From assembly GCF_024298845.1 (NCBI RefSeq), contig NZ_CP101156.1:2232001-2296000 (forward strand): a stretch of 64,000 nt of DNA, in the 5' to 3' direction. Origin of the DNA: Natronosalvus amylolyticus (GTDB lineage Archaea > Halobacteriota > Halobacteria > Halobacteriales > Natrialbaceae). Shown piece by piece: positions 14,740-61,793 of the stretch; position 1 is the first letter of the stretch, and every line of letters starts with the position of its first letter. The position numbers were made by a program, and so were the translations under genes. Below the pieces are notes generated by a model. The model was given only the letters and a program-made list of their open reading frames with translations. It was not told where the DNA came from and made no database searches.

Positions 14740-16926
14740 TCAAGATCGTGACTCGGTGTCCTTCCCATCGGTGCCGTTCGTCTTCGAGGAGAGGCGATTG
14801 CACAATCGGGCGGCCAGCACGAACAGCGATTCAGCGCGGTCTCGTTCGATCGGTTCGGTGTCGAACGTCGATCGCTCGTAGCCCACAGTGAGGTCGTACA
14901 ACAACGATACGTCGTCCGCATCGAAAGCAGACTCACTGGAGACCTGCTCGAAAAACTCCCAGTGAGTCCGGTCCCGCGCCTCGAGTGTCGGGTCGATGGT
15001 TCGTCGAACGGCCCCGTAACTGAATTGCATCGCGTCATCCGTCCGGCCGTCAGCGAGTGCGTCTCTCGCCTGTGAGAGCATGGTCGAGACGAGCCGCGAC
15101 TCAGTCGGTGGCCGCTGGCGTTGCGTACTGGTCGGGGAAAACTCCTCGAGAGAGCGATTCGAGCCCGAACGGCGCTCACGATACCACCATCCGCCCGCGA
15201 TAACCGCCGCGAGACCGAGCCCGCCCCAGACCCAAACCGGAACACTGACCGACGAATCACTCGAGGTGGCTGCCGTACCGACGGTCGTTTCGGCACTCGA
15301 GGAGGCGAGATTCGAGCCGGGGTCGTCGTAGGTCACCGACAGCGTTCGTTGGCCGTCGGTTGTCGGCACGCTCTCGAGGGTTTCGTCGAAGTGGCCGTCA
15401 GCGTCGGTTTCGATGATGCCGGCGCTCGTCCCATCGAGTGTCACAGTGACTGTTTCGTTCTCGAGAGCCGCTCCGTCCGCCGTCTCGAGTGTACCAGTAA
15501 CGTGGATGGCGTCGTCATCCTCGGCTGTCGCGTCCATGGAAATCGTCGTGTCGGTCTCGCGGATGGTTATCTCAGTTGTGTCACCCACAGGAGCCAGGGC
15601 TCGCTCTTCGAAGGCGAGCGTCACCTCGAGGTCGTGGTCACCGGCCGGTACCGCCCGTGGGAGGAGAAACTCGCCCTCGAACGAGCCGTTTTCGGCCTGA
15701 ATCGTCCCCAGCTGTTGGCCAGCGATAGAGACTGCTACCGGGACGGTGTCGACCGGAACCGACTCGGCGGAGATCGTTCCCTCGAGTGTTACCGTCTCGT
15801 CGTAGGCGCCAAATTCCGTCGTCGTCAGCTCCGAAATCGTGGGCTCGATCTGTTCGACCGAAACGTCGATTGCGGCTTCACTCTCGAGGTAGACGGAGCC
15901 GTTTGTGGGGACGGCCTCGATCGTCAGCGCAGTCGTTTCGAGGGGAAGTGCCGTCGGCCGGTACTCGAAGTCGAACGTACCGTCGCTATCGGTTTCGGTA
16001 CGGACCGTCTGGTTACCGACCTCGATACGGAGCGGTTCGTTGGCGACTGGCGAACCGTTCACCGTCCGAAGTTCACCCGTGGCGTTGAGCGGGTCGAGAA
16101 AGGAAATCGTTTCATCCGCACTCGAGAGTTCGAGCGTGGTTTCGACGAACTGTTCGCTCTGAATCTCGGTTCGGTCCGCCTGCACATCTTGAGTAACGGT
16201 GGCGAGACCGTCTCGAGACTCACTGAGGTTTCCGTCGGTTTCCTCCTCGAGGTCAGCGTGCTGGTCGTCGAGATCCTCGGCCAGCGATTCGATTTCGTCG
16301 CCGAGTTCGAGCAGACGACGGGCGTGTTGGCGCGCCTCACGGTCGTTACCGGCAGCCTGTGCTTCCTCGTATGCCTCCTTTACCGCGTCGTACTCCTCGA
16401 GCGTGTCGATCAGTTCGGTCTGTTCGTCCTGTGCGGTTTCGAAACCGTTGGGCTCGTCGTCCTCCTCGTCGGCAACCTCCACGTACTGGCCAGCGAGATC
16501 GCGGTACTCGTCGTCGAGATACGAACGAGCGAGATCGTACTGGCCATCGCTCAACGCGACCGTACTGCCAGCCAGCCGATCAGCCAACTGGTCGCCGAGC
16601 CACTGTCGAAGCCCATCCTGGTCACCACTACCCTCGTACTCATCCGGGTTTTGATGGCGAGGGGTCTCGTTTTCGGCATCGTCATCGGTGTCCGCTTGGA
16701 CCGACTGCTGACCCACGAGGGTCGTCGATACGAACAACTGGTTCGTGCTCGAGGGCACGTTCGCCGTCGTTTCAGGGAGTACGCTGGCGCTCGGTTCACT
16801 CGACGCACTCGAGACAGTGCTCACCTCACCGGTCGTTGCGGTGGCGAAACCACCACCGGCGACGGTAGCGAGGGCTACGCCTACCCCGAGCACACACACG
16901 AGAGTCGCTCCTCGAGCGGTAACCAC
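14740..16926 (-). CDS. Surface protein with cytoplasmic DUF4129-like tail (module A)
   Basis: About 728 aa from the GTG at 16926 (MVTARGATLVCVLGVGVAL, a clean signal peptide). A TTG at 16953 would add nine basic residues. After an acidic linker comes ETPRHQNPDEY, then an all-helical, coiled-coil-prone region (about 95-240) and several Ig/beta-sandwich repeats (about 260-545, GELRTVNGSPVANEP-like). One membrane helix (about 560-580, VPVWVWGGLGLAAVIAGGWW) leads to a cytoplasmic tail (about 610-700) with the DUF4129-like pattern ARDALADGRTDDAMQFSYGA...THWEFFEQ. It is a clear paralog of the protein at 54283-56397. Divergent from the DUF58 gene. In such modules the DUF4129 protein is thought to sense or transmit across the membrane, but the role is unproven. 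Confidence 0.85.
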   Translation of the reverse strand: MVTARGATLVCVLGVGVALATVAGGGFATATTGEVSTVSSASSEPSASVLPETTANVPSSTNQLFVSTTLVGQQSVQADTDDDAENETPRHQNPDEYEGSGDQDGLRQWLGDQLADRLAGSTVALSDGQYDLARSYLDDEYRDLAGQYVEVADEEDDEPNGFETAQDEQTELIDTLEEYDAVKEAYEEAQAAGNDREARQHARRLLELGDEIESLAEDLDDQHADLEEETDGNLSESRDGLATVTQDVQADRTEIQSEQFVETTLELSSADETISFLDPLNATGELRTVNGSPVANEPLRIEVGNQTVRTETDSDGTFDFEYRPTALPLETTALTIEAVPTNGSVYLESEAAIDVSVEQIEPTISELTTTEFGAYDETVTLEGTISAESVPVDTVPVAVSIAGQQLGTIQAENGSFEGEFLLPRAVPAGDHDLEVTLAFEERALAPVGDTTEITIRETDTTISMDATAEDDDAIHVTGTLETADGAALENETVTVTLDGTSAGIIETDADGHFDETLESVPTTDGQRTLSVTYDDPGSNLASSSAETTVGTAATSSDSSVSVPVWVWGGLGLAAVIAGGWWYRERRSGSNRSLEEFSPTSTQRQRPPTESRLVSTMLSQARDALADGRTDDAMQFSYGAVRRTIDPTLEARDRTHWEFFEQVSSESAFDADDVSLLYDLTVGYERSTFDTEPIERDRAESLFVLAARLCNRLSSKTNGTDGKDTESRS

Positions 16927-17126
16927 CCGGGGGGATTCTCGACGGCGACACAAAAGCTAGCCACTCGGGTCGACGTGACAATCCCTCGTTGTGAGTGTCC
17001 AGACTGTGAAAATGTGGAGTGGGAATCAGCCACTCGAGGATAACACGTGGTTGAACTGTACGACTCGGCGTAATCGGTCGTTTCCGCCCCGCACATTCAA
17101 ACGGGCGAGCGGTGTAGGGGCCGAAA

Positions 17127-18623
17127 ATGCATCTGACGGGCCGGTCGTGGACGATCGTTTCGCTCGTCGCAGTGCTCGCGGTTTTGGCGGGCGTCTTCGC
17201 ACAGCCCGTGTTGCTGGCCGGGGGCGCGCTAGTCGGAGCCTGGTGGCTGGGAATGCAGTACCGATTCACCAGGGAGGTCACACACCTTACCGGGTCGCTC
17301 ACCGTTTCCCAGTGGCCCGAGCGCTCGGGCATCCGGGTTGGTGAACAGACGCCAGTGACGCTGACTGTTCGTCTGGAAGAACCCGTCTCACTGTCGGTGA
17401 GCGTCGATGCAGGGATACCAACCGCGGCGACGGGAGCCCAGATATCGGTGGCTCTCGCGTCGGGCGAACGGGAGAGCGAGCGAACCGAATCGGTCACCTG
17501 GCCGGTCGCTGGCCGCCACGGGTTCGATTCCGCGACGGTGACAGTGTCGGATGACTTTTTCCTCGAGCGATTTCCGTTCGGACAGTGCCCCACAGTTACC
17601 GTCGAACCGGTGGGTCCGCGTCGGGTACACGTTGGCGAAGGTGGTGATCGATTCGCCATCGCCTCCGGCGACCACCGATCAGGCGGGCTCGGTTCCGGGT
17701 ACGAACCGGCCGAACTGCGCGAGTACCAGCCTACCGATTCGGCCGCCAGAATCGACTGGAAAGCCACGGCCCGACTGGCGACCCCGCACGTTCGTGCGTT
17801 CGAAGCTGAGACACACCGACGCACCCTGCTCGTCGTAGACCACAGAACACCACTCACAAGGGGGCCGTCCGGCGAGACGAAACTCGACTACCTCCGCGAG
17901 GTTGCGCTGTCGCTGGCCTCGAGTGCCAGTACACATAGTGACCCGGTCGGGTTGCTCACGATCGGTGACGACGGCATCACCGAGCGACTCGAGATATCGA
18001 CCGGACCGGAGCAGTACACACTCGTTCGCCGCTCGTTACTCGAACTCGAGGCGACGAACGACCACGCAGGCATCGATACCCCACAGGCCAGTACGTCGGG
18101 CGCCTCGGCGTGGCACGATCAGCAGGTCACCCCACGGACCGTCAGACGAGCACGTGATCACCTCGAGACGGACGTGAGAAGATCCGCTGGCACGATCGAT
18201 GGGGTAGGTGACGGTGACCGGTTCGCCGATCGCCTGTTACCGTTCTATCGCGTTCGAGCATCCGCACAGCCACGAATCGAATCAAACCCCCTCTTTCGCG
18301 CCCTCCGAGCCGAACTCTCGAGAGAGCCGGGAACCACCTGGACGGTCGTGTTAACCGACGACTCGAACCTCGCCGAACTGCACGAAGCCGTCACGCTAGC
18401 CCGGTCGAACGGGAACGATGTCCTGCTCCTCCTCACACCCTCGCCACTGTTCGAATCGGACGGACTCACCGGAATCGAACGTACTTACGACCGCTACCGG
18501 ACGTTCGAATCACACCGGCGAGACCTCGCCAGTATGGACCGAGTCTCCGCACTCGAGGTCGGCCCCAGTGATCGACTCTCGAGTATCCTCGCGGCGGGGA
18601 CGCGTCGGGAGGTCGCTCGATGA
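17127..18623 (+). CDS. DUF58 protein (module A)
   Basis: 498 aa. Two N-terminal membrane helices (about 8-45), a beta-rich extracellular-like domain (about 55-185), then the DUF58 signature REYQPTDSAARIDWKATAR from R198 and a vWA-like fold behind it (TLLVVDHRTPL, VVLTDDSNL). DUF58 proteins are partners of MoxR AAA+ ATPases, and MoxR-DUF58 pairs act as metal-dependent chaperone-like systems for surface or membrane complexes. The ATG at 17127 follows a 200-base divergent gap. Its stop overlaps the next start as ATGA. It is paralogous to 56493-57920. Confidence 0.9.
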   Translation: MHLTGRSWTIVSLVAVLAVLAGVFAQPVLLAGGALVGAWWLGMQYRFTREVTHLTGSLTVSQWPERSGIRVGEQTPVTLTVRLEEPVSLSVSVDAGIPTAATGAQISVALASGERESERTESVTWPVAGRHGFDSATVTVSDDFFLERFPFGQCPTVTVEPVGPRRVHVGEGGDRFAIASGDHRSGGLGSGYEPAELREYQPTDSAARIDWKATARLATPHVRAFEAETHRRTLLVVDHRTPLTRGPSGETKLDYLREVALSLASSASTHSDPVGLLTIGDDGITERLEISTGPEQYTLVRRSLLELEATNDHAGIDTPQASTSGASAWHDQQVTPRTVRRARDHLETDVRRSAGTIDGVGDGDRFADRLLPFYRVRASAQPRIESNPLFRALRAELSREPGTTWTVVLTDDSNLAELHEAVTLARSNGNDVLLLLTPSPLFESDGLTGIERTYDRYRTFESHRRDLASMDRVSALEVGPSDRLSSILAAGTRREVAR

Positions 18624-19297
18624 GCTGGGAGGTTCTCGAGAGGCGTGTTGACTGGCTGGAGCCGTTCGATTCACCGACCGGGCTTGCATTTGTGTTTCTC
18701 ATCGGGACGATGAGTGTGTTCGGCGGCGTGGCTGGGTTCGCTGCCGGGCTCCTCACGGCCGCAACCTGGCGCGCGTTCGGCGTCCCGTTCGCCATCGCGG
18801 TCGGCCACGTCGTGGTGGTCGGTCTCGTTCCCAACGGCCTCGGCATCGTTTCACTGCTCGTCTTCGAAGGCGCCTTCCTCGCCATCGTTCTTTTCGAGTT
18901 GTCCTGGGAGGCGTCATCACCCAGCGTGTGGGAGCGAATCCGAGCGCTCGAGCGACCATCGCAACCCGGGCAAACCGAACCGCTCGAGTGGCCCCGGTCG
19001 CTGCTCGAGCACTCGAATGTCGGAGACGTGACGGAGAGCTGGCAATCGGCTCCGACGCGAGTTATCGGGGTGACCGTCGGTGGCTACTGCCTGCTGGCGG
19101 GCGGTATCTGGGCAGGCCTCCGAGCGGATTCGGTGTGGCTCGCTGCAGGGGCGTTCCTTGTCGTGTTTTTCATGGTCGGCTACGGGATTCACAGATACCA
19201 GCGAGTTGCATTAGACATCGCCAATGAGGAAACCGCCAGATCAGATTACGAGCCCACCGATGAGACGGCGCACGATCCTTCCGGTGAGGCGGTATGA
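18620..19297 (+). CDS. Polytopic membrane protein of MoxR-DUF58 module A
   Basis: 225 aa with about six hydrophobic segments (FVFLIGTMSVFGGVAGFAAG, FGVPFAIAVGHVVVVGLV, VSLLVFEGAFLAIVLFEL, then two helices near 155-195) and a charged C-terminal tail. Starts inside the DUF58 stop (ATGA) and ends in the same way on the next gene, so the three are translationally coupled. The motif GVPFAIAVGHV is matched by GTPYAFAVGHV in the module B protein at 57917-58459, and VGYGIHRYQRVAL by VSYGIHRLELVRL. No enzymatic motif seen; function unknown. Confidence 0.85.
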   Translation: MSWEVLERRVDWLEPFDSPTGLAFVFLIGTMSVFGGVAGFAAGLLTAATWRAFGVPFAIAVGHVVVVGLVPNGLGIVSLLVFEGAFLAIVLFELSWEASSPSVWERIRALERPSQPGQTEPLEWPRSLLEHSNVGDVTESWQSAPTRVIGVTVGGYCLLAGGIWAGLRADSVWLAAGAFLVVFFMVGYGIHRYQRVALDIANEETARSDYEPTDETAHDPSGEAV

Positions 19298-20193
19298 GTT
19301 CCGAGCGCGTCGGGACCGATACCGAATCGGGACAATCGACATCATCGGAGGCGAGCGAAACGGCGCCGCCGGCGGAGGATGGAACGAAAGCGGACGACGT
19401 CGAACGTCGCGCCCAACTCGAGGTACTCGCCGAGGAGAACCGACAGCTACGCGAGGCCTACGTCAGCGCTCGCCAGTCACCGTATCGGAAAACGGCACAG
19501 GGGCTCGTGGTTCTCGGCCTCGTTGCGGGCCTCGGTGGTCTCTTGCTGCCCGATGGTCGTGACGTGCTGTTCGCACTCGCCGGAACCGGACTGTTCGGTG
19601 GCCTGCTCACGTACTACCTCACCCCGGAGCGCTTCGTCACCGCGGACGTCAGCGAGAACGTGTACGGGACGATGGCAGCGAACGAAGCCGCCATCGCCGC
19701 GGAACTCGGCTTGCAAGACGAACACGTCTACCTCCCGACGGGCGACTCTCGTCTGGCACGACTGTTCGTCCCCCAGCGACCCGAAACCGAACATCCGTCG
19801 ACGCTTACGACGCCGCTGGTGACCGACTCAACCCATCGTGGGGTAGTGCTCGAGGCGACGGGAACCGAACTGTTGCGCTCAGTGAGGCGAACGCTCAAGG
19901 ACGAGTTCGCCCGCTCACCGACAGAACTCGGCGACCAGCTGGCAGATGGTCTCGTCGAAACGCTCGAACTGGCCCGGAGTGCGGAGGTCGACGTCGATGC
20001 CGACGACGGACGGGCGACGGTCGCGGTCGCTAAAAACGAGTTCGGCGACCTCGAACAGTTCGACCACCCGGTGGCCTCGTTTTTCGCCGTCGGATTCGCG
20101 GTTGGCCTCGAGCGGGTAGTGACACTCGAGGTCGACGCTGACGCCGGGTTAGTCACCTGTCGGTGGGAGCCACAGAGCGAAACCGACGAGTGA
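19294..20193 (+). CDS. Coiled-coil plus two-helix membrane protein of module A
   Basis: 299 aa. An N-terminal acidic region and coiled coil (about 35-65, QLEVLAEENRQLREAY) precede a two-helix membrane hairpin (about 68-110, GLVVLGLVAGLGGLLLP...LFGGLLTYYLTPERFV). A long soluble alpha/beta domain (about 120-299) ends VTCRWEPQ. The order coiled coil, hairpin, LTPERFVTADV is shared almost exactly with the module B protein at 58456-59313. It is coupled to the preceding gene by ATGA. Probably the last gene of a three-gene operon with DUF58; no known function. Confidence 0.85.
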   Translation: MSSERVGTDTESGQSTSSEASETAPPAEDGTKADDVERRAQLEVLAEENRQLREAYVSARQSPYRKTAQGLVVLGLVAGLGGLLLPDGRDVLFALAGTGLFGGLLTYYLTPERFVTADVSENVYGTMAANEAAIAAELGLQDEHVYLPTGDSRLARLFVPQRPETEHPSTLTTPLVTDSTHRGVVLEATGTELLRSVRRTLKDEFARSPTELGDQLADGLVETLELARSAEVDVDADDGRATVAVAKNEFGDLEQFDHPVASFFAVGFAVGLERVVTLEVDADAGLVTCRWEPQSETDE

Positions 20194-20409: not shown

Positions 20410-21477
20410 ATGGAACCTACCCATCTTTCACGAACGGAACAGAATGAATCGACGACGCAAGACCGCCGGACTTCTACTGCCGACCGCTCTGATGGTGGAA
20501 GAACACCACCCTCGTCGAGGCTCGAGCGGCGATCGGTGCTCAAAGGACTCGCTACCTGTGCCGTTCCGCTCGTGGCCGGACAGACCGTCGCCGGCGACTC
20601 GAGCGGTGACGATGCGACCTATGGGAACGGAGCCTACGGTGCGGGCAGCTATGGCGGGACTGACAGCGGCGATCCGGTTACGGACGAACCGGACTCCCTC
20701 GAGCGGACGATTCTCATCGACGGCATCGGGACGACGGGTGAAAGCCAGTACGAAATCGAGGTCGACGGCTCCATCGAACCCTCGACGTACAAGGGCGCAT
20801 CTATCGACGACTCGACGGTCATCGAGGACGACCACGTCTCGGGGACGGTAACTGGCTGGCGAGATGCCTACCGGTTTTCCGGCGAGATCCAGTCGCTCAC
20901 CGTCGATGGGAGCGCACGCGTGTCCGTCGACGACGACCAAATCGACCCCGCCGAGTACGGTGGTGAAAGCGTGTCAGTCGTGACGGTCGTCGGCAACGGC
21001 GTCCCCTCACGATACCGGGTGACTGTCGAAAGTGACCTCGAGGTCCTCGAGGGCGACGCCGAACTGACGGTCTTGGGTGACACAGCCATCGGTGAAATCG
21101 AGACCGGCGTCCACCGCCTCAAGTTCACCGGCGACCTCCTCGAGTGTACCTTCGAGGAAGGTGGCACACAGGTCTACCTGGACGACGAACGTATCGACCC
21201 CGAGGAGTACGACGGTACCGAGCAACTTCCACACCTGATCGTCTTCGACGGAACGGACGCCGACGACTCGAGTCAGTACGCGTTCAGCGTCAGCGAAGGC
21301 GTCGAGCAATCGACCGACGACGGCGCCACGAAAACAACCGGTAGCGTGATCGACGGGAACGAGGTCCGTGGAAGCGTCGAAGCAGGCGAGAAAACGGCCT
21401 ACCGGTTCGACGGCGAGATCGAGACGTTCAGCCTCGTCGGAACCGCCGACGTCGACGTTTCCTACGACAGGTGGTGA
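20410..21477 (+). CDS. Tat-exported protein with YGxxx motif and three tandem beta repeats
   Basis: 355 aa. A long polar N region is followed by a Tat signal, ERRSVLKGLATCAVPLVAG. Directly after comes YGNGAYGAGSYGG. The rest is three tandem repeats of about 95 residues: about 95-190, 190-275 and 275-355. Each has a start like ILIDGIGTTGESQYEIEVDG, a middle like AYRFSGEI and an end like RVSVDDDQIDPAEYGG. The third repeat stops early at VDVSYDRW. Similar repeats are familiar as C-terminal modules of haloarchaeal beta-helix proteins; here they stand alone. A TATA-like GAAATATAGG lies near 20369. It has no counterpart in module B, so it is an insertion relative to that copy. Confidence 0.8.
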   Translation: MEPTHLSRTEQNESTTQDRRTSTADRSDGGRTPPSSRLERRSVLKGLATCAVPLVAGQTVAGDSSGDDATYGNGAYGAGSYGGTDSGDPVTDEPDSLERTILIDGIGTTGESQYEIEVDGSIEPSTYKGASIDDSTVIEDDHVSGTVTGWRDAYRFSGEIQSLTVDGSARVSVDDDQIDPAEYGGESVSVVTVVGNGVPSRYRVTVESDLEVLEGDAELTVLGDTAIGEIETGVHRLKFTGDLLECTFEEGGTQVYLDDERIDPEEYDGTEQLPHLIVFDGTDADDSSQYAFSVSEGVEQSTDDGATKTTGSVIDGNEVRGSVEAGEKTAYRFDGEIETFSLVGTADVDVSYDRW

Positions 21478-21533
21478 TATCCTCCCCTGCGTGAACGCCG
21501 AGGAGTTACCGCGTCTTCGCGTCCGGCAGGGTC

Positions 21534-22166
21534 TCAACCGAGCAGATTCCGGAGCGTCAGGACGGCGAAGATGACAATCACCGCCTCGGAGATGATCCAC
21601 GAGTTGTCGTTCATCCAATCGCGAATGTGCGGGAGTGCTGTTTCGGCTCGTTTGCCGAGTATGACCACTCCAAGCGACGGAAGCGCCAACAGAAAGAGTG
21701 TGAGCAGAACGAATCCCGCCGCGTCCGTAACAGGTGCACCGTTGGCCGCAAGGTAGGTTCCGACGGTGATCGAAGTGACGACGTTGGTCGGGAAAAAGCC
21801 CAGCAAGAGAAAGCCGAGTCGAAACGAAAACTGCGGCGCCGCGCTGGTCAACTCACCCATCCACTTCGGCGGCTCAGAGACGGTTCGGTTTCGATAGGTA
21901 TCCACCCCTGCGTAGACGAGGAGAGCGAGGACGACGACGTAAAGGAGTTGTCGTGCACTCGCACCTAACAGACCGCCATCACTCCCGAGACTATTCCCCA
22001 GGAGGTACGCGATGGCGACGACGAGGCTGATAGAGAGAGCTGCACCGAAGACGTAGGCCGTAGCGTTCGCGCGCCACCGTTCACTCGTGGACAGGAAGAT
22101 TGATGAGATGATCTGTGGACCCGCGATCATCACGATAGCCAACGGGAGAACGTCAACGAAGCTCAT
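21534..22166 (-). CDS. GAP (Sap)-family six-helix membrane protein
   Basis: 210 aa, six hydrophobic helices: LPLAIVMIAGPQIISSIFL, AYVFGAALSISLVVAIAYLL, LLYVVVLALLVYAGVDTY and three more. The spacing and the late FFPTNVVTSITVGTYL segment match the GAP family (peptidoglycolipid addressing protein, LysE-like superfamily), thought to export or position lipids or small molecules. It lies 18 bases after the MoxR stop on the same strand, so it is probably the last gene of the module A MoxR operon. Module B has no such gene. Confidence 0.75.
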   Translation of the reverse strand: MSFVDVLPLAIVMIAGPQIISSIFLSTSERWRANATAYVFGAALSISLVVAIAYLLGNSLGSDGGLLGASARQLLYVVVLALLVYAGVDTYRNRTVSEPPKWMGELTSAAPQFSFRLGFLLLGFFPTNVVTSITVGTYLAANGAPVTDAAGFVLLTLFLLALPSLGVVILGKRAETALPHIRDWMNDNSWIISEAVIVIFAVLTLRNLLG

Positions 22167-22184
22167 CGTTCGTACTCGAGTGGT

Positions 22185-23207
22185 TCAACCGGCATCATCG
22201 CCCCCGTCACCCACGGCCGTGCTGGCATCGAGTTCGCCAGACGGTGGTTCGATCATCTCGAGCAGGTCCCGGACCACGCTTGCCGGGGAGACGTTCCCCA
22301 GTTCGGCGTCGGTACTCAACACGAGTCGATGGACGAGCGTCGGCTCAGCGAGCGATTTCACGTCGTCCGGAATCACGTACGACCGACCGTGAATCGCTGC
22401 CCGCGCCTTGCCAGCGTGGAGAAACGCCAGCGTCGCTCGCGGCGACCCGCCGTGTGCAACGTCCGAATGCGTTCGACTGGCCGTCACGAGATCGATGATG
22501 TACTCTTTGACCGGCGGCGCAACGTACACCGACGAGACAGCCGCTCGGGCAGCGAAGATGTCGTCGGTATCGATGACCTGTTCGACGGCGTCGGCCTCGA
22601 GTTCGGGATTGTCGTCGAATCGGTCGAGCAGTTCTCGTTCGTCCGATCGGGGTGGGATATCGACGGTGAGTTTGAACTGGAAGCGGTCACGCTGGGCTTC
22701 GGGCAGTTCGAACACCCCCTCCATCTCGATCGGGTTTTGCGTCGCGACGACGAGAAACGGCGTCGGAAGCGCCAGCGTCTCACCCTCTATCGAGACGTGG
22801 CGTTCTTGCATCGCCTCGAGCAGTGCACTCTGAGTTTTGGGCGTCGCTCGGTTGATCTCGTCGGCGACGACGACGTTGGCGAAGATAGGGCCGCGCTGGA
22901 GGTCGAACTCGCCGACGTGCTGGCGATACACGGTCGTCCCGGTGATGTCGGCCGGCAGGATATCCGGCGTCATCTGAATTCGCCGGTGCTCGAGACCAGT
23001 TGTGCGAGCGAACAGCGTCGCAATCGTCGTCTTGGCCACACCCGGAACGCCCTCGAGCAGGACGTGCCCACGTGTCAACAACGCAATCGTGAGGTGCTCG
23101 ATAATCGTCTCGTTGCCGACCAGGACGCGTTCGGCTTCGTTCTTGATAGCTTCATAACAGGCCTGTGGCGTCCCACGCCCGTCGTCTGCCGGTGGCGTCG
23201 ACGTCAT
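22185..23207 (-). CDS. MoxR-family AAA+ ATPase (module A)
   Basis: 340 aa. Walker A GVPGVAKT (53-60), Walker B VVVADEINR (112-120) and sensor region VVATQNPIEMEG followed by FELPEAQRDRFQFK, then a C-terminal helical lid. This is the standard MoxR architecture, a hexameric ATPase that works with DUF58/vWA partners to activate or assemble membrane or surface complexes. The start codon overlaps the DUF4350 gene by ATGA (23204-23207). It is strongly similar to 59323-60330 along its whole length, including identical Walker positions. Confidence 0.95.
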   Translation of the reverse strand: MTSTPPADDGRGTPQACYEAIKNEAERVLVGNETIIEHLTIALLTRGHVLLEGVPGVAKTTIATLFARTTGLEHRRIQMTPDILPADITGTTVYRQHVGEFDLQRGPIFANVVVADEINRATPKTQSALLEAMQERHVSIEGETLALPTPFLVVATQNPIEMEGVFELPEAQRDRFQFKLTVDIPPRSDERELLDRFDDNPELEADAVEQVIDTDDIFAARAAVSSVYVAPPVKEYIIDLVTASRTHSDVAHGGSPRATLAFLHAGKARAAIHGRSYVIPDDVKSLAEPTLVHRLVLSTDAELGNVSPASVVRDLLEMIEPPSGELDASTAVGDGGDDAG

Positions 23208-48266: not shown

Positions 48267-48291
48267 TATCGCTCACCTCGTTCGGTCGCCA

Positions 48292-49500: not shown

Positions 49501-49506
49501 TTTCGA

Positions 49507-54282: not shown

Positions 54283-56397
54283 TCAATCGTCGGCCGAAAC
54301 CGGCGACTCGGTCTCGCTGGCCACGCCACAGAGTTTTCGGGCACACTCGAGGGCGCGCTTTGCCTTCTCAACTGGCACGCCCTCAGGCGTATAAACCGCC
54401 TGTTCGTAGGTTTCCGTCATCGTCTGTAGGGGTTCGTCAGTCGGGTCCCCGCGGTAGTGATTGAAGAATTCCCAGTGGGTCAGTTGCGTCGACGAATCGG
54501 TATCGGCGAGCGCGCGTCTGACAGCCCCGTAGCCGGTGGCGACCGCTTCGTCCGGACGACCGTTTGTCAGGTGCGAACGGGCGTCGGCGAGGAGAGTTCG
54601 ACTCACGACAACGGATTCGTCGTGGTCAGTGGAGGTATCCTCCGACGTCGGCGTGTGTGCCGGTTGGCCCGTGGAATCTGCCTCAGGGTTACGACGCCAC
54701 CACCAGACACCGGTTCCGAGTGCCAACAGCGTGAGGACGCCGACGCCGACCCACAGGAGCGGTGACGTCCAGAGTGGGTCCCCATCGGTGGCCGGTTGTG
54801 CGCTGGCCGTAAGTTGCACATCCGTCGTCCCGGTCGTCTCGGCAAGGTTCGTCCCGTCACCCTCGAAGAGTGCACCCACCGTGACGGTTCCGGCGGCCGT
54901 CGTCTCGAGTGGAATCTCCGCCGACAGTACACCGTCTTCTTCCGTCGTGACGGTTTCGAATGGCTCGCCGTCGATCATGATCGTGACGGTGTATCCCTCG
55001 AGACCCGCTCCATCGATCGTCTCGAGTTCGCCCTCGAGTGAAAGGGTCTCTCCATCGTGGCTGCCCTCGAGAGAGAGCGCCGTTTCGGTTTCGGTCACGG
55101 TAACGTCGGTGCTGGCACTCACATTGGCGAGCGCCCGGTCTTCCATGGGTAACGAGACTTCGAGGGTGTGTTCACCCGCTGGAACCGATGCGGGGACGGG
55201 AACCGTCCCATCGACGGTACCGTTTTCGACCGGCAGTTCGCCCAGCGTTTGGTCGCCCAGGGTGATGGTGACCGGGACGCCGTCGACTGGTTCGCCCGCA
55301 ACGAGCACGTCGGCGCTGACCGACAGCTGGTCGTCGTACGCGACGCTATCAGTCGTCTCGAGGGCCGAAATCGTCGGCCCGAGTTGATGTATCGAAACGG
55401 GAAGCGACGCCGAACTGCCCAGATAGGTCGAGTTCCTCGCGGGTTCGTACTGGACTGGAACCGTCTCGGTCGAGAGCGGTTTGTCCGCCGCTGGCTGGTA
55501 GTCGAAGGTGAAGGAGCCGTTGGCGTCGGTTTCGACGGTCTGGGGTTCGCCGTCGATGAGGAGTCGGATCGTTTCGTTAGCAATCGTGGAGTTGTCCGCC
55601 GTCTCGATGGTACCAGTGGCCTGTAACGGATCGACATACGAGACGTTTTCAGCGTCGGCTTCGACCGAAAGCCGTGTCTGGACGAAAACCGCGTCACGTA
55701 CCTCGGTCTGTTGTTGTTGGGTCGATTCGTTCACCTGGGAGATCGAGTCTTTGGCATCCGTAAAGTCGATATCCGTTCGAACGCTGATGAGGTCGTACGT
55801 TTCGTCGAGTTCGTCAGCCAGAACGGCAATCTCGTCGGCGAGTACCTCGAGTTCGCGGGCGATTTCTCGTGCTCGCTCTTCGTCACCGGCTTCGATCGCC
55901 GCCTCGTAGTCGGCAAAGAGTTCCTCGTATTCCTCGAGGAGGGTTGCGAGCCGTTCTTGCTTCTCGGCGGCCTCTTCGAAGGCCTCCTCGGTGGTTTTCT
56001 CCTCTTCCTCGTCGTCGTCATCGGCCGTGTCTTCGTCGGTCTCACCAGCGACCTCGACGTACTGGCCGAGTCGCTCCCGGTACTCCTCGCCGACGTAGTC
56101 CTTGGCGAAGTCGTACTCGCCCTCGCTCAAGGAAATCGCGCCGTCGCCCAATTGCTCAGCAAGCCGGTTTTCGAGCCAGCCAGCGGCGCCGTCACCGTCT
56201 TCGTCGTATCCATCCGGGTTCTGGTGTCGGGGGGTCTCGTTGCCCTCGTCGTCTTCGTCAGCGACGACGGTGCTGATGGCCGGTGTCGGTTGTGGCTCGA
56301 TAGGGTCGGATGCGCCGAGTGCCACACCGCTCACTGGCAGCGCCACGAGGCACAACACACACACGAGAATCAGCACGCGCCCGGACCTGTCGTTCAC
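54283..56397 (-). CDS. Surface protein with cytoplasmic DUF4129-like tail (module B)
   Basis: 704 aa from the GTG at 56397 (MNDRSGRVLILVCVLCLVAL signal peptide; GTG at 56448 adds 17 polar residues). Shares NETPRHQNPDGYDEDGDG, a long helical region (about 85-245), Ig-like beta repeats (about 260-545), one helix (about 560-582, WTSPLLWVGVGVLTLLALG) and a cytoplasmic tail (about 610-690) with LADARSHLTNGRPDEAVATG and HWEFFNHYRG, the same architecture as 14740-16926. The acidic loop DTADDDDEEEEKTTEE in the helical region is longer here. Divergent from DUF58; 95 bases between chosen starts. Confidence 0.85.
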   Translation of the reverse strand: MNDRSGRVLILVCVLCLVALPVSGVALGASDPIEPQPTPAISTVVADEDDEGNETPRHQNPDGYDEDGDGAAGWLENRLAEQLGDGAISLSEGEYDFAKDYVGEEYRERLGQYVEVAGETDEDTADDDDEEEEKTTEEAFEEAAEKQERLATLLEEYEELFADYEAAIEAGDEERAREIARELEVLADEIAVLADELDETYDLISVRTDIDFTDAKDSISQVNESTQQQQTEVRDAVFVQTRLSVEADAENVSYVDPLQATGTIETADNSTIANETIRLLIDGEPQTVETDANGSFTFDYQPAADKPLSTETVPVQYEPARNSTYLGSSASLPVSIHQLGPTISALETTDSVAYDDQLSVSADVLVAGEPVDGVPVTITLGDQTLGELPVENGTVDGTVPVPASVPAGEHTLEVSLPMEDRALANVSASTDVTVTETETALSLEGSHDGETLSLEGELETIDGAGLEGYTVTIMIDGEPFETVTTEEDGVLSAEIPLETTAAGTVTVGALFEGDGTNLAETTGTTDVQLTASAQPATDGDPLWTSPLLWVGVGVLTLLALGTGVWWWRRNPEADSTGQPAHTPTSEDTSTDHDESVVVSRTLLADARSHLTNGRPDEAVATGYGAVRRALADTDSSTQLTHWEFFNHYRGDPTDEPLQTMTETYEQAVYTPEGVPVEKAKRALECARKLCGVASETESPVSADD

Positions 56398-56492
56398 GGA
56401 GGAAGATTCGTCGGAAAACCCAAAAGTCTGTCTGCTCGAGGGTGGCACCGATAACCAGTAACTTCAACACGCCCTCGGAAAATTTGTGAACT

Positions 56493-57920
56493 ATGCGACC
56501 AACGCGCCGAACACTGGCTGTGGGTGGGCTTGTCGCCTTTTTCACAGCACTTGCCGTCCTCTTTGCCCATCCAGCGCCCCTCGTGGGGGCCGTGGGGATC
56601 GGCGCGTGGCTCTGTGTCCGACAGTATCTGTTTTATCGTGAACTGGTGAGAGCGACCAATGTCCTCGAACTTCGACAGACACCAGCCCTGACGGGCCTCA
56701 AAACGGGAGAGTCGACGACGGTAACGATCGGCGCAACGCTCGAGCGCCCAAGTTCGCTCTCACTGTCGATCGAGGCGGGTTTGCCTGTGAGCACCGTCAC
56801 CGAAGCCGACTCGACGCTGACTCTCGAGCCCGAAAAACGAGAAGCGACCCGCACCATGGAGGTGAGTTGGCCGGTTGCCGGTCGACACGAATTCGAGCCC
56901 GCACGCGTCACCGCGAGTGACGGGCTGTTCACCGAAACGCTCACGCTGGGTTCGACACCGACCGTGACGGTCCAACCACGCGGGCCTCGGTCGATACACG
57001 TCGGCTCGGGTGGGAACCGCGTTCCCGTTCGTCAGGGGAATCATCCAGCCGGGAAGAGTGGCTCCGGTCTCATTCCAGCAGAACTCAGAGAGTACATGCC
57101 CGGCGAAACGGCCGCCCGAATCGACTGGAAAGCCACGGCCAGGCTGGTGACACCCCACGTCCGAACGTACGACGCCGAAACGGACCGACTGACGGTGTTG
57201 GTGGTCGATCACTCCAGTACGCTCGCGACTGGTCCCGATGGCGAGACACAGCTCGACTATCTGCGAGAAGTCGCCCTCTTGCTGGCCGAAAGCGCACACG
57301 GCCTCGGCGACCCGGTCGGGCTCTGGACGGTCGACGAGTCGGCCATCACGTCACAGTACCCGCCTTCGACCGGGCCGATCAAACGGATTCGACGCCGCTT
57401 GCTCGACCTCGAGGCCGCATCCGAGGGGACACGAACGCCTCGACAGCAGTCGGCTGGAAGCGGCGATCCGACGGCGGCATTCAGAGAACTTCGTCGCGGT
57501 GGCGACGATTCGTTGACGGCGACGCTCGAGCCCTACATCGGCGCACGCACTGGGAACGAGCGCTTCGAGACGAGTGGACCGGCACTGTCCAAAGCCGTGC
57601 AAAAAGCCCTGAGCCAGCAGCGCTCGAGTGCGTGGGTCGTTCTGTTGACGAACGACACCAACCCGTCGGCAGTCCGTCGGAGCGTCCGCCGAGCACGGGA
57701 GGCCGAAAGCGACGTGCTGGTGTTGTTGACACCGACCGTCCTGTTCGAACCCGGCGAACTCGTCGACCTCGAGGCGGCCTACGAACGGTACCTGGAGTTC
57801 GAGGAGTTCCGTCGGAGCCTCGATCGACTCGATCGCGTCACCGCACTCGAAGTCGCACCCGACGAGACGTTGACGACGGTGCTTTCGGTTGGACGAAGCC
57901 GGCGAGGGGTGACACAATGA
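56493..57920 (+). CDS. DUF58 protein (module B)
   Basis: 475 aa. Two N-terminal helices (about 8-50), beta domain (about 60-185), then REYMPGETAARIDWKATAR from R199 and the vWA-like TVLVVDHSSTL and VVLLTNDTNPS motifs. Homologous to 17127-18623 throughout. Partner of the MoxR ATPase encoded nearby; the pair is expected to act on a surface complex. Ends in ATGA overlap. Confidence 0.9.
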   Translation: MRPTRRTLAVGGLVAFFTALAVLFAHPAPLVGAVGIGAWLCVRQYLFYRELVRATNVLELRQTPALTGLKTGESTTVTIGATLERPSSLSLSIEAGLPVSTVTEADSTLTLEPEKREATRTMEVSWPVAGRHEFEPARVTASDGLFTETLTLGSTPTVTVQPRGPRSIHVGSGGNRVPVRQGNHPAGKSGSGLIPAELREYMPGETAARIDWKATARLVTPHVRTYDAETDRLTVLVVDHSSTLATGPDGETQLDYLREVALLLAESAHGLGDPVGLWTVDESAITSQYPPSTGPIKRIRRRLLDLEAASEGTRTPRQQSAGSGDPTAAFRELRRGGDDSLTATLEPYIGARTGNERFETSGPALSKAVQKALSQQRSSAWVVLLTNDTNPSAVRRSVRRAREAESDVLVLLTPTVLFEPGELVDLEAAYERYLEFEEFRRSLDRLDRVTALEVAPDETLTTVLSVGRSRRGVTQ

Positions 57921-58459
57921 GCCGATTCCTTCCAGGGAGCCATCTCGAGGCCAGCCCGCTACTCGGCGAGGGGGCAATCGACTGCTGGCCGGAAGCGCTC
58001 GCTCTGACGGCCCTGCTAGTCGTCTTCGGACTCACTGCAGGACCGGTCGGTGTTCTGGTGGGTCTCCTGACCGCAGCCGTCTGGTACGCACTGGGAACAC
58101 CCTACGCGTTTGCCGTCGGACACGTCGGTATCGTCGTCGCGTTCAGCGATGGCATCGACCCGCTCATGCTCGCCCTCCTCGAAGTGCCGTTCGTGGCGTT
58201 GCTCCTCGCGCCGCTCGTTCGCCACCACGCTCGAGTGCGTGCGATTGGGGTCGCCCTGACAGTCGTCCTCGCCGGGAGTGCGTTGGTCTGGGTCGGGACC
58301 AGCCAGCTGTCCCTGTCAGTGACCGTCCTGCTGGTCCTCGGCTTCCTGGTGATCGTGAGTTACGGAATCCACCGCCTCGAGCTCGTGCGTCTGGGGCTCG
58401 TCAGGGATGACCGGGACCGAACTGCACGCGAGACGGCAACCGAGGGGAGAACACAATGA
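57917..58459 (+). CDS. Polytopic membrane protein of module B
   Basis: 180 aa from MSRFLPGSHLEASPLLGEGA. Hydrophobic segments at about 28-50, 55-75, 78-98, 112-132 and 135-155 with GTPYAFAVGHVG, LALLEVPFVALLLA and VSYGIHRLELVRL. Shorter than its module A relative (225 aa) because the acidic cytoplasmic loop is reduced. Coupled to DUF58 and to the next gene by ATGA overlaps. No enzymatic motif. Confidence 0.85.
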   Translation: MSRFLPGSHLEASPLLGEGAIDCWPEALALTALLVVFGLTAGPVGVLVGLLTAAVWYALGTPYAFAVGHVGIVVAFSDGIDPLMLALLEVPFVALLLAPLVRHHARVRAIGVALTVVLAGSALVWVGTSQLSLSVTVLLVLGFLVIVSYGIHRLELVRLGLVRDDRDRTARETATEGRTQ

Positions 58460-59313
58460 GTACGGTAATCGACTACGACGAGATGAACGACGACACGCCG
58501 ACGACTGACGATTCGGAGACGGTGAGTGAATACAAAGCACAACTCGAGGTGCTGACGGCCGAAAACCGTCGGCTGCGAGCGGAGTACGCGCGTGCTCGAA
58601 CCAGTGCCTATCGGCGAACGGCCGCTGGAATGGGTGCGATCGGCGTGGTTGCAGTCGCCGGTGGCCTGCTATTTCCCGGCGCTCGAGACGTGTTGTTCAT
58701 CCTCGGTGCGATCGGCCTCTTTGGGGGCCTGCTCACCTACTACCTCACACCTGAACGGTTCGTTGCCGCAGACGTCGGCGAACGCGTGTACGCGGCAGCC
58801 GCCGCGAATCAGGCATCGATCACGGAACACCTCGGGCTTCGCCCTGAACAGTACTACGTGCAGATACGCGATACCGTCTACGTCTTCGTCCCCTTACACG
58901 CCGACGCTGAAGTCCCCGAGAACGCACACGGCCCGTTCGTCCTCGAGGAAGACCAGCGAGGGGTGTTACTGGAGACGGCCGGTGATCGACTCTTTCGGTC
59001 GTTCGAGCAGACCCTCTCGGGTTCGCTCGCCTCGAGTCCCACACCCCTTGCACAGCAACTCTGTGATGGACTCGTCGAACAGTTCGAACTCGCGACGCGT
59101 GCAACCCCGGACGTCGATGGAGAAGATGGCCGCGTGACGATTGCGGTCACTGGCAGCGCGTTCGGTGCCGTCGATCGCTTCGACCACCCAATTCCGTCGT
59201 TTCTGGCAGCCGGTCTCGCGACGGGCCTCGAGCGACCGGTCACGCTCGAGGTCACGCCAGGCGACGAGCGAGCCGACTGGCTGGTCACCTGTCGGTTCGA
59301 ATCCGCGGAGTAG
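58456..59313 (+). CDS. Coiled-coil plus two-helix membrane protein of module B
   Basis: 285 aa. Coiled coil QLEVLTAENRRLRAEYARAR (about 25-50), two-helix hairpin (about 56-100, LFGGLLTYYLTPERFVAADV) and a C-terminal alpha/beta domain (about 115-285) ending WLVTCRFES. Matches 19294-20193 in every part. Ends 9 bases before the convergent MoxR gene. Confidence 0.85.
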   Translation: MSTVIDYDEMNDDTPTTDDSETVSEYKAQLEVLTAENRRLRAEYARARTSAYRRTAAGMGAIGVVAVAGGLLFPGARDVLFILGAIGLFGGLLTYYLTPERFVAADVGERVYAAAAANQASITEHLGLRPEQYYVQIRDTVYVFVPLHADAEVPENAHGPFVLEEDQRGVLLETAGDRLFRSFEQTLSGSLASSPTPLAQQLCDGLVEQFELATRATPDVDGEDGRVTIAVTGSAFGAVDRFDHPIPSFLAAGLATGLERPVTLEVTPGDERADWLVTCRFESAE

Positions 59314-59322
59314 CAGTGTTGA

Positions 59323-60330
59323 CTACGCTTCTTTGGGCGTCGCCATCTCGCTCGGTTCGACGTCCGGAATCGCCGTCTCCTCGAGGACGTCTTCGACGAT
59401 AGCCTGTGGCGTCACGTCGCTCAGTTCGGCGTCGGTCTCCAACACGAGGCGATGGGCAAGAATAGCGGGCGCCAGCGCCTTGACGTCGTCCGGGATGACG
59501 TACGATCGACCGTGTACGGCGGCTCTGGCTTTCGCTCCGTCGATGAACGTGATCGTCGCCCGTGGTGAGGCACCGTGTCTGACATCCGGGTGGCTGCGTG
59601 TCGCCCCAACCAGATCGAGAACGTAGGATTTGACCGGCGGCGCGACGTACGTGTTCGTGACTTGCGTCCGTGCTTCGAGCAGTGCGTCTTCCGTGACCAC
59701 CTGTTCGACCGTGTCCGGCCCGAGATTCGGATTCGTATCGAACCGCTCGAGGAGTTCGGCTTCGTCGTCACGGTCTGGAAGGTCGACGGTGAGTTTGAAC
59801 TGGAAGCGGTCACGCTGGGCTTCTGGCAGTTCGAACACACCCTCCATCTCGATGGGGTTCTGCGTCGCAACGACCATGAACGGCTCCGGGAGGGAGAGCG
59901 TCTCGCCTTCGATCGTCACCTGACGCTCTTGCATCGCCTCGAGGAGTGCGCTCTGGGTTTTCGGCGTTGCTCGGTTGATCTCGTCGGCGACGACGAGGTT
60001 GGCGAACACCGGTCCACGCTGGAGTTCGAACTCCCCCGTGTTCTGTCGATACACGTTCGTGCCAGTGATGTCTGCGGGGAGAATATCAGGCGTCATCTGA
60101 ATCCGTCGGAATCCCAGTCCTGATGCCCGCGCGAAGAGATTTGCAATCGTCGTCTTGGCGACCCCAGGGACACCCTCGAGGAGGAGGTGCCCGCGAGTCA
60201 ACAGGGCGATCGTGAGGTGTTCGACGGTCCCCTCGTTGCCGACGAGTACCTGCTCGACTTCGGTCTGAATAGCCTCGGCGATGGCCTCGGGGTCCCCAGC
60301 CGTCACCAGCCCCGATTCAGTCTCGCTCAT
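59323..60330 (-). CDS. MoxR-family AAA+ ATPase (module B)
   Basis: 335 aa from MSETESGLVTAGDPEAIAEA. Walker A GVPGVAKT (53-60), Walker B LVVADEINR, then ATPKTQSALLEAMQE and VVATQNPIEMEG, FELPEAQRDRFQFK, identical in position to the module A copy. Start overlaps the DUF4350 stop by 14 bases. No GAP-type gene follows it here; the operon ends tail to tail with the three-gene plus-strand set. Confidence 0.95.
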   Translation of the reverse strand: MSETESGLVTAGDPEAIAEAIQTEVEQVLVGNEGTVEHLTIALLTRGHLLLEGVPGVAKTTIANLFARASGLGFRRIQMTPDILPADITGTNVYRQNTGEFELQRGPVFANLVVADEINRATPKTQSALLEAMQERQVTIEGETLSLPEPFMVVATQNPIEMEGVFELPEAQRDRFQFKLTVDLPDRDDEAELLERFDTNPNLGPDTVEQVVTEDALLEARTQVTNTYVAPPVKSYVLDLVGATRSHPDVRHGASPRATITFIDGAKARAAVHGRSYVIPDDVKALAPAILAHRLVLETDAELSDVTPQAIVEDVLEETAIPDVEPSEMATPKEA

Positions 60331-61462
60331 GTTGTCCACCTTTCGAGTCACGCTGGTTAAACACTGTTATCATGCGCTCGATGCGCTCGTCATCCCAGTC
60401 GGGATGGCGCTCACGGAGGAGCGTGGCTCGCTCGACATCCGAGAGCGTCGGCGTCGATTCCTCAGCGGCCTGGACGCTTCGTCGACGACGGCCGACAGGA
60501 AGTCGCTCACGTGTGAGGCGGCCGCTCGAGAAGAGTGCGATCAGCCCGATGCCCACGAAGCCGAGCAGCGCCTGCAAGAAGACCGACCCACGAAGGACCA
60601 ACAGTGCGGCAGTCAGCGGTGGGATCCCATCGCTGTGACTCACGTCGACGACCGCGGTGTTCCCCTCGCGAGCGAGCGCCGTCAGAAACACCTCGTTGTC
60701 CGGTTCGTCTCGCATCGCGTTGGTCGTGATCGAGGGATCGCCGATGACGACCACACGCCCGTCTTCGACCGATTCGATCGTCGCCACGGGCAGGCGCTCG
60801 AGTTCTTTGTCGTCGTCCAGTTCTTCGTCCGGGTCGTCGACACGGTAGGCGAAATCACTGGTCGTGACTAATGTTGTAGCGTTACTCGGTTCGACGGCAG
60901 TCGCGTAATTCAGCGTGAGCTGCTCGACGTCTGCCGTCAGCGTGTGATTTTCCACCCCGGTGGCGACCGGCATCGTCGGCCCCCTGAAGTAATACTCGTC
61001 GTCACGGATGACCTGGCCATCGACGCGGGCACTCGCACCAACGTCCTCGAGCAAGGCGTTCCCCTGTGGTTCGAAGTTCTCGAGGACGACGAGCGTTCCC
61101 CCTGCCTCGACGAATCGCGCGACATCGGCTGCGGATTCGTCGTCGTACGTCTCCTCAGGAGCGATGACGAACGCAACCGTGTTTTCAGGCTCGAGGTCGG
61201 CGTACCTGCTCGTGTCCTGGATGAGGCTAGCCTCGACCTCGGGGTCGTCGTCGAGCGCCGACTGGAAATTACTGGCCCCGTCCCACGACGGGTTGTACGG
61301 GCCGAACGCTGTCGTCGATGTAGAACCTCCCACGACCAACGCGCCGAGGGTGACCAGTACGAGGACCGCGAGGAGCACCGTCGGCCAGGAGAGTCGTGAG
61401 GACGTCAGCGACTCGAGGACGGCTGGGGCGTCGGAACTCGAGCGGTCGGAATCGGCTGTCAT
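60317..61462 (-). CDS. DUF4350 membrane protein (module B)
   Basis: 381 aa. N-terminal helix (about 27-50), extracellular GATase-like domain (FGPYNPSWDGASNF, VIAPEETYDDESAADVARF, GGTLVVLENFEPQG, VVVIGDPSITTNAMRDEPDN), second helix (about 290-310, LLGFVGIGLIALF) and a basic/acidic cytoplasmic tail ending ERHPDWDDERIERMITVF. Matches 23204-24316 at each landmark. 49 bases after the small membrane protein gene. Confidence 0.88.
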   Translation of the reverse strand: MTADSDRSSSDAPAVLESLTSSRLSWPTVLLAVLVLVTLGALVVGGSTSTTAFGPYNPSWDGASNFQSALDDDPEVEASLIQDTSRYADLEPENTVAFVIAPEETYDDESAADVARFVEAGGTLVVLENFEPQGNALLEDVGASARVDGQVIRDDEYYFRGPTMPVATGVENHTLTADVEQLTLNYATAVEPSNATTLVTTSDFAYRVDDPDEELDDDKELERLPVATIESVEDGRVVVIGDPSITTNAMRDEPDNEVFLTALAREGNTAVVDVSHSDGIPPLTAALLVLRGSVFLQALLGFVGIGLIALFSSGRLTRERLPVGRRRRSVQAAEESTPTLSDVERATLLRERHPDWDDERIERMITVFNQRDSKGGQHERD

Positions 61463-61511
61463 CGTGGGGACCCCTCCAGCGTCAGCATATGGGAGGTACC
61501 TTTCGAGGACG

Positions 61512-61793
61512 TCATATTGGGAGCACCTCCGGCGGCAATATCTCGAGGATTCGTCGGACGACGATGACCCCGAAGCCGACCAATCCGATGGCGATGAGCC
61601 AGAACAGTCGGCGACGCCAGCCGGGCGTCACGTTCAGCGGTGCCGTGAGTTCCGTGACGATCAACAGCCCGATCAGCGACAGCACGAAAAACAGCTCGTA
61701 GGATAACGAACCGAGTAACGCGAGTACGAGCGCCGTCGCCAGCATCCAGGCGAGCTGTCCGTGGATAAACCGCTGGCGACGCGTCGTTGGCAT
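61512..61793 (-). CDS. Small three-helix membrane protein heading module B operon
   Basis: 93 aa, MPTTRRQRFIHGQLAWMLAT. Three helices (about 14-32, 34-52, 66-85) and a final RRILEILPPEVLP, matching 24313-24591. It begins the minus-strand operon of small protein, DUF4350, MoxR. ATG at 61793. Confidence 0.85.
   Translation of the reverse strand: MPTTRRQRFIHGQLAWMLATALVLALLGSLSYELFFVLSLIGLLIVTELTAPLNVTPGWRRRLFWLIAIGLVGFGVIVVRRILEILPPEVLPI

Follow-up and report, generated by a model that had tools for sequence, protein, structure and literature searches.

A putative surface-export gene module with a predicted TRAPP-like subunit, present in two divergent copies in Natronosalvus amylolyticus

The window analysed here, 64,000 nucleotides of the Natronosalvus amylolyticus genome (NZ_CP101156.1, positions 2,232,001-2,296,000; all coordinates below are window-based), contains two blocks, at 14740-24591 (copy A) and 54283-61793 (copy B), which agree in their seven genes and in the order and strands of these. 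Each block runs from a secreted protein rich in immunoglobulin-like (Ig) segments (-) through a DUF58 protein (+), a polytopic membrane protein (+), a membrane protein built around a helix hairpin, here simply called the hairpin protein (+), and a MoxR ATPase (-) to a DUF4350 protein (-) and a small three-helix membrane protein (-). Judging from their phylogeny, copies A and B belong to two older lineages, inherited separately, of a module that is passed on as a unit, and their split lies within Natrialbaceae-type modules and before the genus. It is our reading, held with moderate confidence and at somewhat better than even chances, that the products of each block form a single complex spanning the membrane, for the assembly or export of surface material, and that this material most likely consists of glycosylated surface proteins or of their glycans. 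The sequences themselves show which genes make up the block, that these are conserved together, that the ATPase motifs of MoxR are intact, and that hydrophobic helices and Ig-like segments are present; the rest of this picture is interpretation.

All seven gene pairs are paralogues by blastp, with identities ranging from 27% for the polytopic proteins (199 aligned residues, E 5e-13) to 74% for MoxR (306 aligned); between these lie the Ig-rich (36%, 657 aligned), DUF58 (44%, 496), DUF4350 (45%, 349), hairpin (54%, 261) and three-helix (71%, 90) pairs, and in global alignment the seven pairs score 12 to 81 standard deviations over 100 shuffles. An earlier reading made from the sequence alone (the sequence-only reading) had described the repeated order and strands, as well as a paralogue with common landmarks for each gene, and in this it was correct: NETPRHQNPD, LTPERFV and IHGQLAW are all present, and the Walker A site of MoxR starts at residue 53 in both copies, the start of copy B being taken at 60330. 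The matching ATGA couplings that it reported are found in the left arm of both copies (DUF58-polytopic-hairpin), but in the right arm (MoxR-DUF4350-small) in copy A only, copy B having a 14-base overlap and a 49-base gap instead. Likewise, the seven pairs are real, but two extra genes of copy A, both in the interval between hairpin and MoxR and without counterpart in copy B, had been overlooked, as had an eighth member of the module, a DUF1616 gene. Pfam confirms DUF58, MoxR (AAA_3) and DUF4350 in both copies, whereas the DUF4129 label given to the Ig-rich protein is weak, the match in copy B reaching 15.6 bits against a cut-off of 24.8 and copy A having no Pfam match to this family at E<1. 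The host genome has six matches to DUF58, five to MoxR above the cut-off plus a weak one, and three to DUF1616, and the hairpin profile matches there in copies A and B only; thus further MoxR-DUF58 genes exist in this genome.

The identical layout, about 40 kb apart, had suggested that the block was duplicated as a unit, for instance by a recent tandem-type duplication inside the genus, the two blocks being parted later by the glycan locus between them. The block does behave as a unit, but a duplication within the lineage is not supported by comparison with other genomes. Modules orthologous to copy A and copy B (A type and B type hereafter) both occur in the nearest relative, Natronosalvus hydrolyticus, on separate contigs (L013, A type, hairpin 85% identical; L060, B type), and in another Natronosalvus genome, G005, where they lie at 2.82 Mb and 0.06 Mb of one 3.84-Mb contig (L069 and L070); with the types more than 1 Mb apart in G005, the 40-kb spacing is not conserved. 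A scan of named genomes for the hairpin pair returned 54 distinct loci, all haloarchaeal. Seven duplicate loci (L020, L067, L068, L076, L077, L084 and L086) were removed before counting, the fragments L063 and L064 were left out of the alignments, the concatenated tree and the flank counts, and for the outside-genus counts four rows from the genome itself were removed along with the duplicates. By bit score, 5-40 of the 43-58 genes from outside the genus beat the paralogue in the window, for either copy and for all seven genes. Better matches in unrelated genomes, in a gene-specific way, had been named beforehand as a sign of separate gain, and such matches were found for every gene, but module-wise and not gene by gene. 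By percent identity, 2 to 45 outside-genus genes exceed the paralogue for the six genes other than MoxR, while for MoxR the figures are 0/44 (copy A) and 2/44 (copy B).

In a concatenated tree of 47 modules, the A triple stands apart from the B triple, which joins modules from Natronococcus and Halopiger, and a joint A+B clade is rejected (p-AU, from the approximately unbiased test, 0.0009 with six rows; p 2e-103 with four rows). Single-gene trees place copy B with its N. hydrolyticus and G005 orthologues in 7/7 cases and copy A in 6/7, the failure being the three-helix gene (93 columns). The hairpin gene taken alone tolerates a joint clade (p-AU 0.11), and this, together with the shared layout and the percent identities of the copy A MoxR, is what speaks for a recent duplication; neither the hairpin gene nor the MoxR identities are decisive, and given the concatenated tree, the better outside-genus bit scores and the orthologues of both types in two related genomes, a recent duplication is extremely unlikely and was ruled out. 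The A/B split is thus older than the genus, and the two copies probably serve different surface products. Relatives of the hairpin protein also occur on 33 plasmid records, which makes horizontal transfer a possible source. Three further Natronosalvus genomes (G033, G053 and G078) are without types A and B; they carry a fast-evolving minimal locus of DUF1616, hairpin and three-helix genes (L072, L074 and L075), and G033 and G078 have, in addition, a third full module type (L071 and L073).

The module extends well beyond this genus. A hairpin profile built from 67 rows finds the gene in 160/292 genomes of the class and in 74/392 of the phylum, 34 of these 74 being kin to the window genome at phylum level only. 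Membership was counted where the hairpin gene has 7 kb or more of sequence to its left and to its right, which holds for 71 haloarchaeal loci and 19 of the 20 non-haloarchaeal ones. All eight genes are present in 42/71 haloarchaeal loci, and the set minus DUF1616 in 8/71; a further 8/71 have only a minimal trio (DUF1616, hairpin and three-helix), 6/71 only the left arm plus DUF1616, and 7/71 other subsets. Gene by gene, MoxR and DUF4350 are each found in 54 haloarchaeal loci, DUF1616 in 57 and the three-helix gene in 62, while outside the haloarchaea (n=19) DUF58, MoxR and DUF4350 are found in all 19, the Ig-rich gene in 18, the three-helix gene in 17 and DUF1616 in 13. The claim that the hairpin and three-helix proteins belong to the module is supported, in that both are members on a regular basis. 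The 20 non-haloarchaeal loci, from 19 genomes, are mostly one operon in the order small, Ig-rich, DUF4350, MoxR, DUF58, in some a small polytopic gene, and hairpin; one locus (L101) is partial and arranged differently. The polytopic gene is found by profile in 0/19 of these loci, and short polytopic frames stand at its place in several. As a control, 20 random 20-kb regions from related genomes gave a single gene matching any of the eight profiles (a DUF4129 match at E<0.01), and among their called genes none of the eight profiles matched at E<1e-5.

The eighth member emerged when 732 neighbour genes, taken from 68 sources, were clustered: one cluster had members in 48 of the sources, its member in the window being the DUF1616 gene at 50424-51503. 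In N. hydrolyticus it directly follows the Ig-rich gene of the B-type locus L060, and it adjoins the Ig-rich gene in the B-type loci of the sister species. Among the 20 non-haloarchaeal loci it is convergent on the hairpin gene in nine, co-directional in four and absent from the rest. Next to the A-type locus L013 there is no DUF1616 gene, and the A-type module of G005 has next to it a short DUF1616 frame (E 8e-57; 4952-5557 of L069), so that type A may have lost this member. In the window, three genes of regulator type (DUF7344, HalOD1 and Bat/HTH_10, 51630-53622) separate DUF1616 from copy B, and this trio is not found at the matching place in L060.

The hairpin protein lacks a Pfam label, and its C-terminal domain likely has the fold of the TRAPP-Bet3/V4R/H-NOX group, as judged from structure models. 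The model of copy A (predicted local distance difference test, pLDDT, 87.5) begins with a long helix at the N-terminus, continues into a helix hairpin and ends in an alpha/beta domain; its best match in the Protein Data Bank (PDB) by Foldseek is a TRAPP subunit (E 0.01, probability 1.00), and VIA-align superposes it on the Bet3-TPC6B core with Z 9.2 over 131 residues, some kinase-helix rows appearing in the list from rank 28 on. A separate model of the copy B C-terminal domain (pLDDT 92.6; predicted template modelling score, pTM, 0.89) gives E 0.004 and Z 9.4 over 132 residues, and all 50 of the 50 rows listed are TRAPP subunits, the phenol sensors MopR/PoxR/DmpR, YslB, BcsD/CesD, H-NOX or guanylate cyclase, which together form one superfamily. 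Models without a clear match often have a best Z of 7 to 8 in VIA-align, but fall to 4 to 5 at rank 50, where the copy B domain still stands at Z 6.7 in the same fold group; the alignments behind the two models overlap in most rows, and the models are not independent of each other. Several results qualify the assignment: (i) Foldseek gave no match under E 0.001 for either model, (ii) neither V4R nor TRAPP is among the 25 commonest of the 52 Pfam families weakly matched by the 67 members, (iii) hhalign against 22 V4R proteins yielded probabilities of 1.9 and 0.9 (control A3, 0.04), and (iv) none of the 21 matches at E<=10 in a PDB sequence search is named TRAPP, V4R or H-NOX. A link to V4R at the sequence level was accordingly discarded as a candidate, the hhalign values being not significant. 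Against NCBIfam there are weak matches only, e.g. SepX/GlpR (0.0019, 18.3 of 110 bits).

A fold of this kind invites two other readings of the module. One is membrane remodelling or vesicle formation, with the TRAPP-like protein acting as a tether; the match to TRAPP subunits fits it, both the homology of V4R and Bet3 and a possible role in prokaryotic traffic are in print (PMC2253512), and section 3.2 of PMC5898192 weighs secretion against vesicle formation. Fold by itself shows no function, though, and no GTPase family is among the 25 commonest of 108 flank families, so we regard this reading as quite unlikely. The other would make the hairpin protein a ligand sensor of V4R/H-NOX type that regulates surface export, and the module primarily a signalling device. 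Phenol and gas sensors do belong to the same fold group, but a regulator gene is never a regular member, and the eight minimal loci have only three membrane proteins in common, which renders a signalling device very unlikely.

In the reading that we prefer, a complex for the assembly or export of surface material, the motifs and predicted topologies suggest a division of labour. The Walker motifs of MoxR are intact in all 47 aligned modules. The metal ion-dependent adhesion site (MIDAS) of canonical vWA domains has the motif DxSxS, which the DUF58 proteins of the 47 haloarchaeal modules do not have: most carry DHRxx, and three, all B-type, carry DxSxT in the form DHSST. Since DUF58 is hydrophobic near its N-terminus only, its domain may be cytoplasmic and not secreted. 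Taken over the members, the hydrophobic stretches suggest an arrangement in which cytoplasmic MoxR, DUF58 and TRAPP-like domains face a membrane core, while DUF4350 and the Ig-rich protein lie on its outer side. A cytoplasmic MoxR AAA+ ring would act on the membrane-anchored DUF58, which would probably be a docking scaffold because its metal site is degenerate in most members; ATP hydrolysis would then assemble or switch a membrane core of DUF1616, three-helix and hairpin proteins, and DUF4350 and the Ig-rich protein would form the extracellular face. The TRAPP/V4R-fold domain of the hairpin protein, presumably on the cytoplasmic side, could be either a dimerising scaffold, like Bet3 and BcsD, or a gate that binds a small ligand, like V4R and H-NOX domains. 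We would go further only tentatively, and consider it a doubtful but appreciable possibility that the hairpin protein, as a membrane-anchored relative of the TRAPP/V4R fold and in the smallest set with DUF1616 and the three-helix protein, is a core subunit of an ancient archaeal surface-export machine that is driven by MoxR-DUF58 in its full form. If true, this would be a prokaryotic use of the TRAPP/V4R fold in membrane traffic outside the Asgard archaea.

Other MoxR/vWA pairs offer a different model, namely a maturation chaperone for an enzyme or cofactor instead of export or assembly, and MoxR ATPases have reported chaperone-like roles in maturing dedicated complexes (PMC3893208). Here no enzyme is a constant neighbour, and the regular partners except MoxR carry membrane helices, so a chaperone is unlikely. 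Some observations nevertheless weigh against the export complex: MoxR is not within the locus in 17/71 haloarchaeal loci, which implies that the ATPase is not always encoded beside the other members; copy A has no DUF1616 gene next to it in the window; large PGF-CTERM genes are close to copy B here, but such genes at E<=1e-4 lie within 20 kb of a module in only 1/10 other genomes (G064); and no experiment on the function of any member was found in the literature searched, which excludes bioRxiv and most subscription papers.

The surroundings of the module fit a role at the cell surface. In the window, copy A adjoins glycan genes and copy B adjoins DUF1616 and a MacB-type transporter, and the intervening locus contains several of the classes that recur elsewhere. 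Compared with random regions, the flanks are richer in MacB/FtsX genes and in glycan genes (GlmS-type SIS/GATase, nucleotidyltransferase/hexapeptide, GT2, GT1, flippase), so that the glycan setting noted from the sequence holds more widely. Specifically, a sample of 140 of 361 flank genes, which come from related loci and are not independent, has FtsX 10 times, ABC 9, MacB 7, SIS (GlmS type) 6, GT2 5, GT1 4, Hexapep 4 and flippase 3, while each of these families occurs at most once in the control sample (139 of 323 genes from random regions, being 140 minus one protein that runs to the end of its region).

Two kinds of surface protein were considered as substrates. At E<=1 the genome has 25 PGF-CTERM matches, five of them in genes no more than about 33 kb from the end of copy B; dedicated PGF-CTERM substrates as a general rule were rejected, G064 being the only one of 10 other genomes with this arrangement. 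The five matches extend downstream of copy B over 61908-64000 and onward (contig positions 2293914-2326845), one of them in a frame of 3315 codons. Proteins with a YGxGxYG motif, considered as a substrate tag, make up 7/732 neighbours. In the window, YGxGxYG proteins with a twin-arginine (Tat)-like signal are encoded beside copy A (13693-14520) and inside it (20410-21477), and further genes with the motif lie near the modules L013, L054, L058 and L069. Other neighbours include, near copy A, an S8 subtilase of 1507 residues (6866-11389) that contains carboxypeptidase-regulatory-like domains and has a relative at the matching place in L013; in the glycan locus, a protein of 608 residues (32618-34444) that lacks a Pfam match at E<0.001 and has about 13 membrane helices, and whose cluster is also found beside the minimal loci L049 and L080; and a YdjM-like membrane protein (43128-43748) whose cluster occurs in 12 sources, often adjoining the three-helix gene, YdjM accounting for 6/140 sampled flank genes.

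Table 1. Genes of copies A and B and associated features (Pfam accession with E-value)
Feature	Position	Strand	Pfam
Copy A secreted Ig-rich protein ('DUF4129-like'), one C-terminal transmembrane helix and tail; start codon uncertain	14740..16953	-	
Copy A DUF58 (vWA-like), N-terminal membrane anchor, degenerate MIDAS (DHRTP)	17127..18623	+	PF01882 1.1e-18
Copy A polytopic membrane protein, ATGA-coupled on both sides	18620..19297	+	
Copy A hairpin protein: long N-terminal helix, two membrane helices, predicted TRAPP/V4R/H-NOX-like domain (about residues 115-294)	19294..20193	+	
Insert in copy A only: surface protein, Tat-like signal, YGxGxYG motif	20410..21477	+	
Insert in copy A only: SfLAP-family membrane protein	21534..22166	-	PF11139 1.8e-26
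Copy A MoxR AAA+ ATPase, intact Walker A/B	22185..23207	-	PF07726 3.8e-60
Copy A DUF4350, hydrophobic helix on each side of the domain	23204..24316	-	PF14258 3.8e-31
Copy A small three-helix membrane protein	24313..24591	-	
MacB/FtsX-type ABC transporter (two permeases, one ATPase); adjoins DUF1616; recurrent neighbour, not core	47037..50307	-	
DUF1616, five membrane helices, eighth member	50424..51503	-	PF07760 4.7e-114
Copy B secreted Ig-rich protein ('DUF4129-like')	54283..56448	-	
Copy B DUF58, MIDAS-like DHSST	56493..57920	+	PF01882 1.7e-18
Copy B polytopic membrane protein	57917..58459	+	
Copy B hairpin protein (domain at residues 98-285); C-terminal domain modelled alone	58456..59313	+	
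Copy B MoxR AAA+ ATPase	59323..60330	-	PF07726 2.8e-62
Copy B DUF4350	60317..61462	-	PF14258 3.2e-26
Copy B small three-helix membrane protein	61512..61793	-	

The sequence-only reading had proposed an undescribed machine, which is too strong: a secretion system with DUF4350 (arCOG01314), MoxR, vWA, Ig-rich and pfam07760 proteins was predicted in 2015 by Makarova, Galperin and Koonin, with Halobacteria marked as partly having it (PMC5898192). One of its predicted components is listed as HVO_2173 (PMC6393860), the DUF1616 protein of Haloferax (Hfx.) volcanii, which together with HVO_2172, HVO_2167 and HVO_2160 is an N-glycoprotein encoded in one cluster and of unknown function (PMC8241124); a MoxR-vWA module is also reported from all hypha-forming haloarchaeal genomes (PMC10067837). 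No experimental test of the predicted DUF4350-MoxR-vWA-DUF1616 system was found in the literature searched. As far as that literature goes, the module is of a kind already known as a prediction, to which the present work adds the split haloarchaeal layout, a minimal trio, the old age of the copy pair and the predicted TRAPP-like fold. The regular members of the system are now defined over 90 loci, a three-gene form is shown, and a predicted fold is given to the hairpin subunit, so that the system becomes directly testable in tractable haloarchaea. The results also bear on whether TRAPP-like folds already served prokaryotic membrane processes, a possibility raised in PMC2253512.

In its composition the module resembles the predicted system, with DUF4350, a MoxR-family AAA+ ATPase, a vWA protein, an Ig-rich surface protein and pfam07760 in common, as well as small membrane proteins of 2-3 and 5 helices, for which secretion or membrane remodelling was proposed (PMC5898192). 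DUF4350 has a hydrophobic helix on each side of its domain, which would be extracellular, MoxR lies in the locus with PF07726 above the cut-off in both copies, and pfam07760 is present as DUF1616. The haloarchaeal copies differ in layout, their genes forming two convergent arms that separate DUF58 from MoxR, and perhaps in the vWA protein: where the predicted system has a secreted protein with an Ig-like domain at its N-terminus and a vWA domain at its C-terminus, the vWA-like protein here is of DUF58 type, and its domain may be cytoplasmic. The recognised TRAPP-like fold (a prediction) of the hairpin protein, the three-gene form and the presence of two separately inherited copies in one genome set it further apart. 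MoxR-DUF58 gene pairs are a general kind in bacteria and archaea, and the same pairing, with intact Walker motifs, is found here; unlike the general pairs, the DUF58 metal site is mostly degenerate, and the pair is regularly accompanied by DUF4350, DUF1616, hairpin and three-helix proteins. The TRAPP-Bet3/V4R/H-NOX group resembles the C-terminal domain of the hairpin protein in predicted fold, but the latter is carried by a membrane helix hairpin, itself preceded by a long helix at the N-terminus, and has no detectable sequence similarity to the group, and the near-invariant cysteines of 22 V4R proteins have no match among its invariant or near-invariant columns. Finally, in the hvo_2160-hvo_2173 cluster of Hfx. 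volcanii, DUF1616 likewise stands beside secreted N-glycoproteins (PMC8241124), and from DUF1616 and context only we infer that this cluster is the same module.

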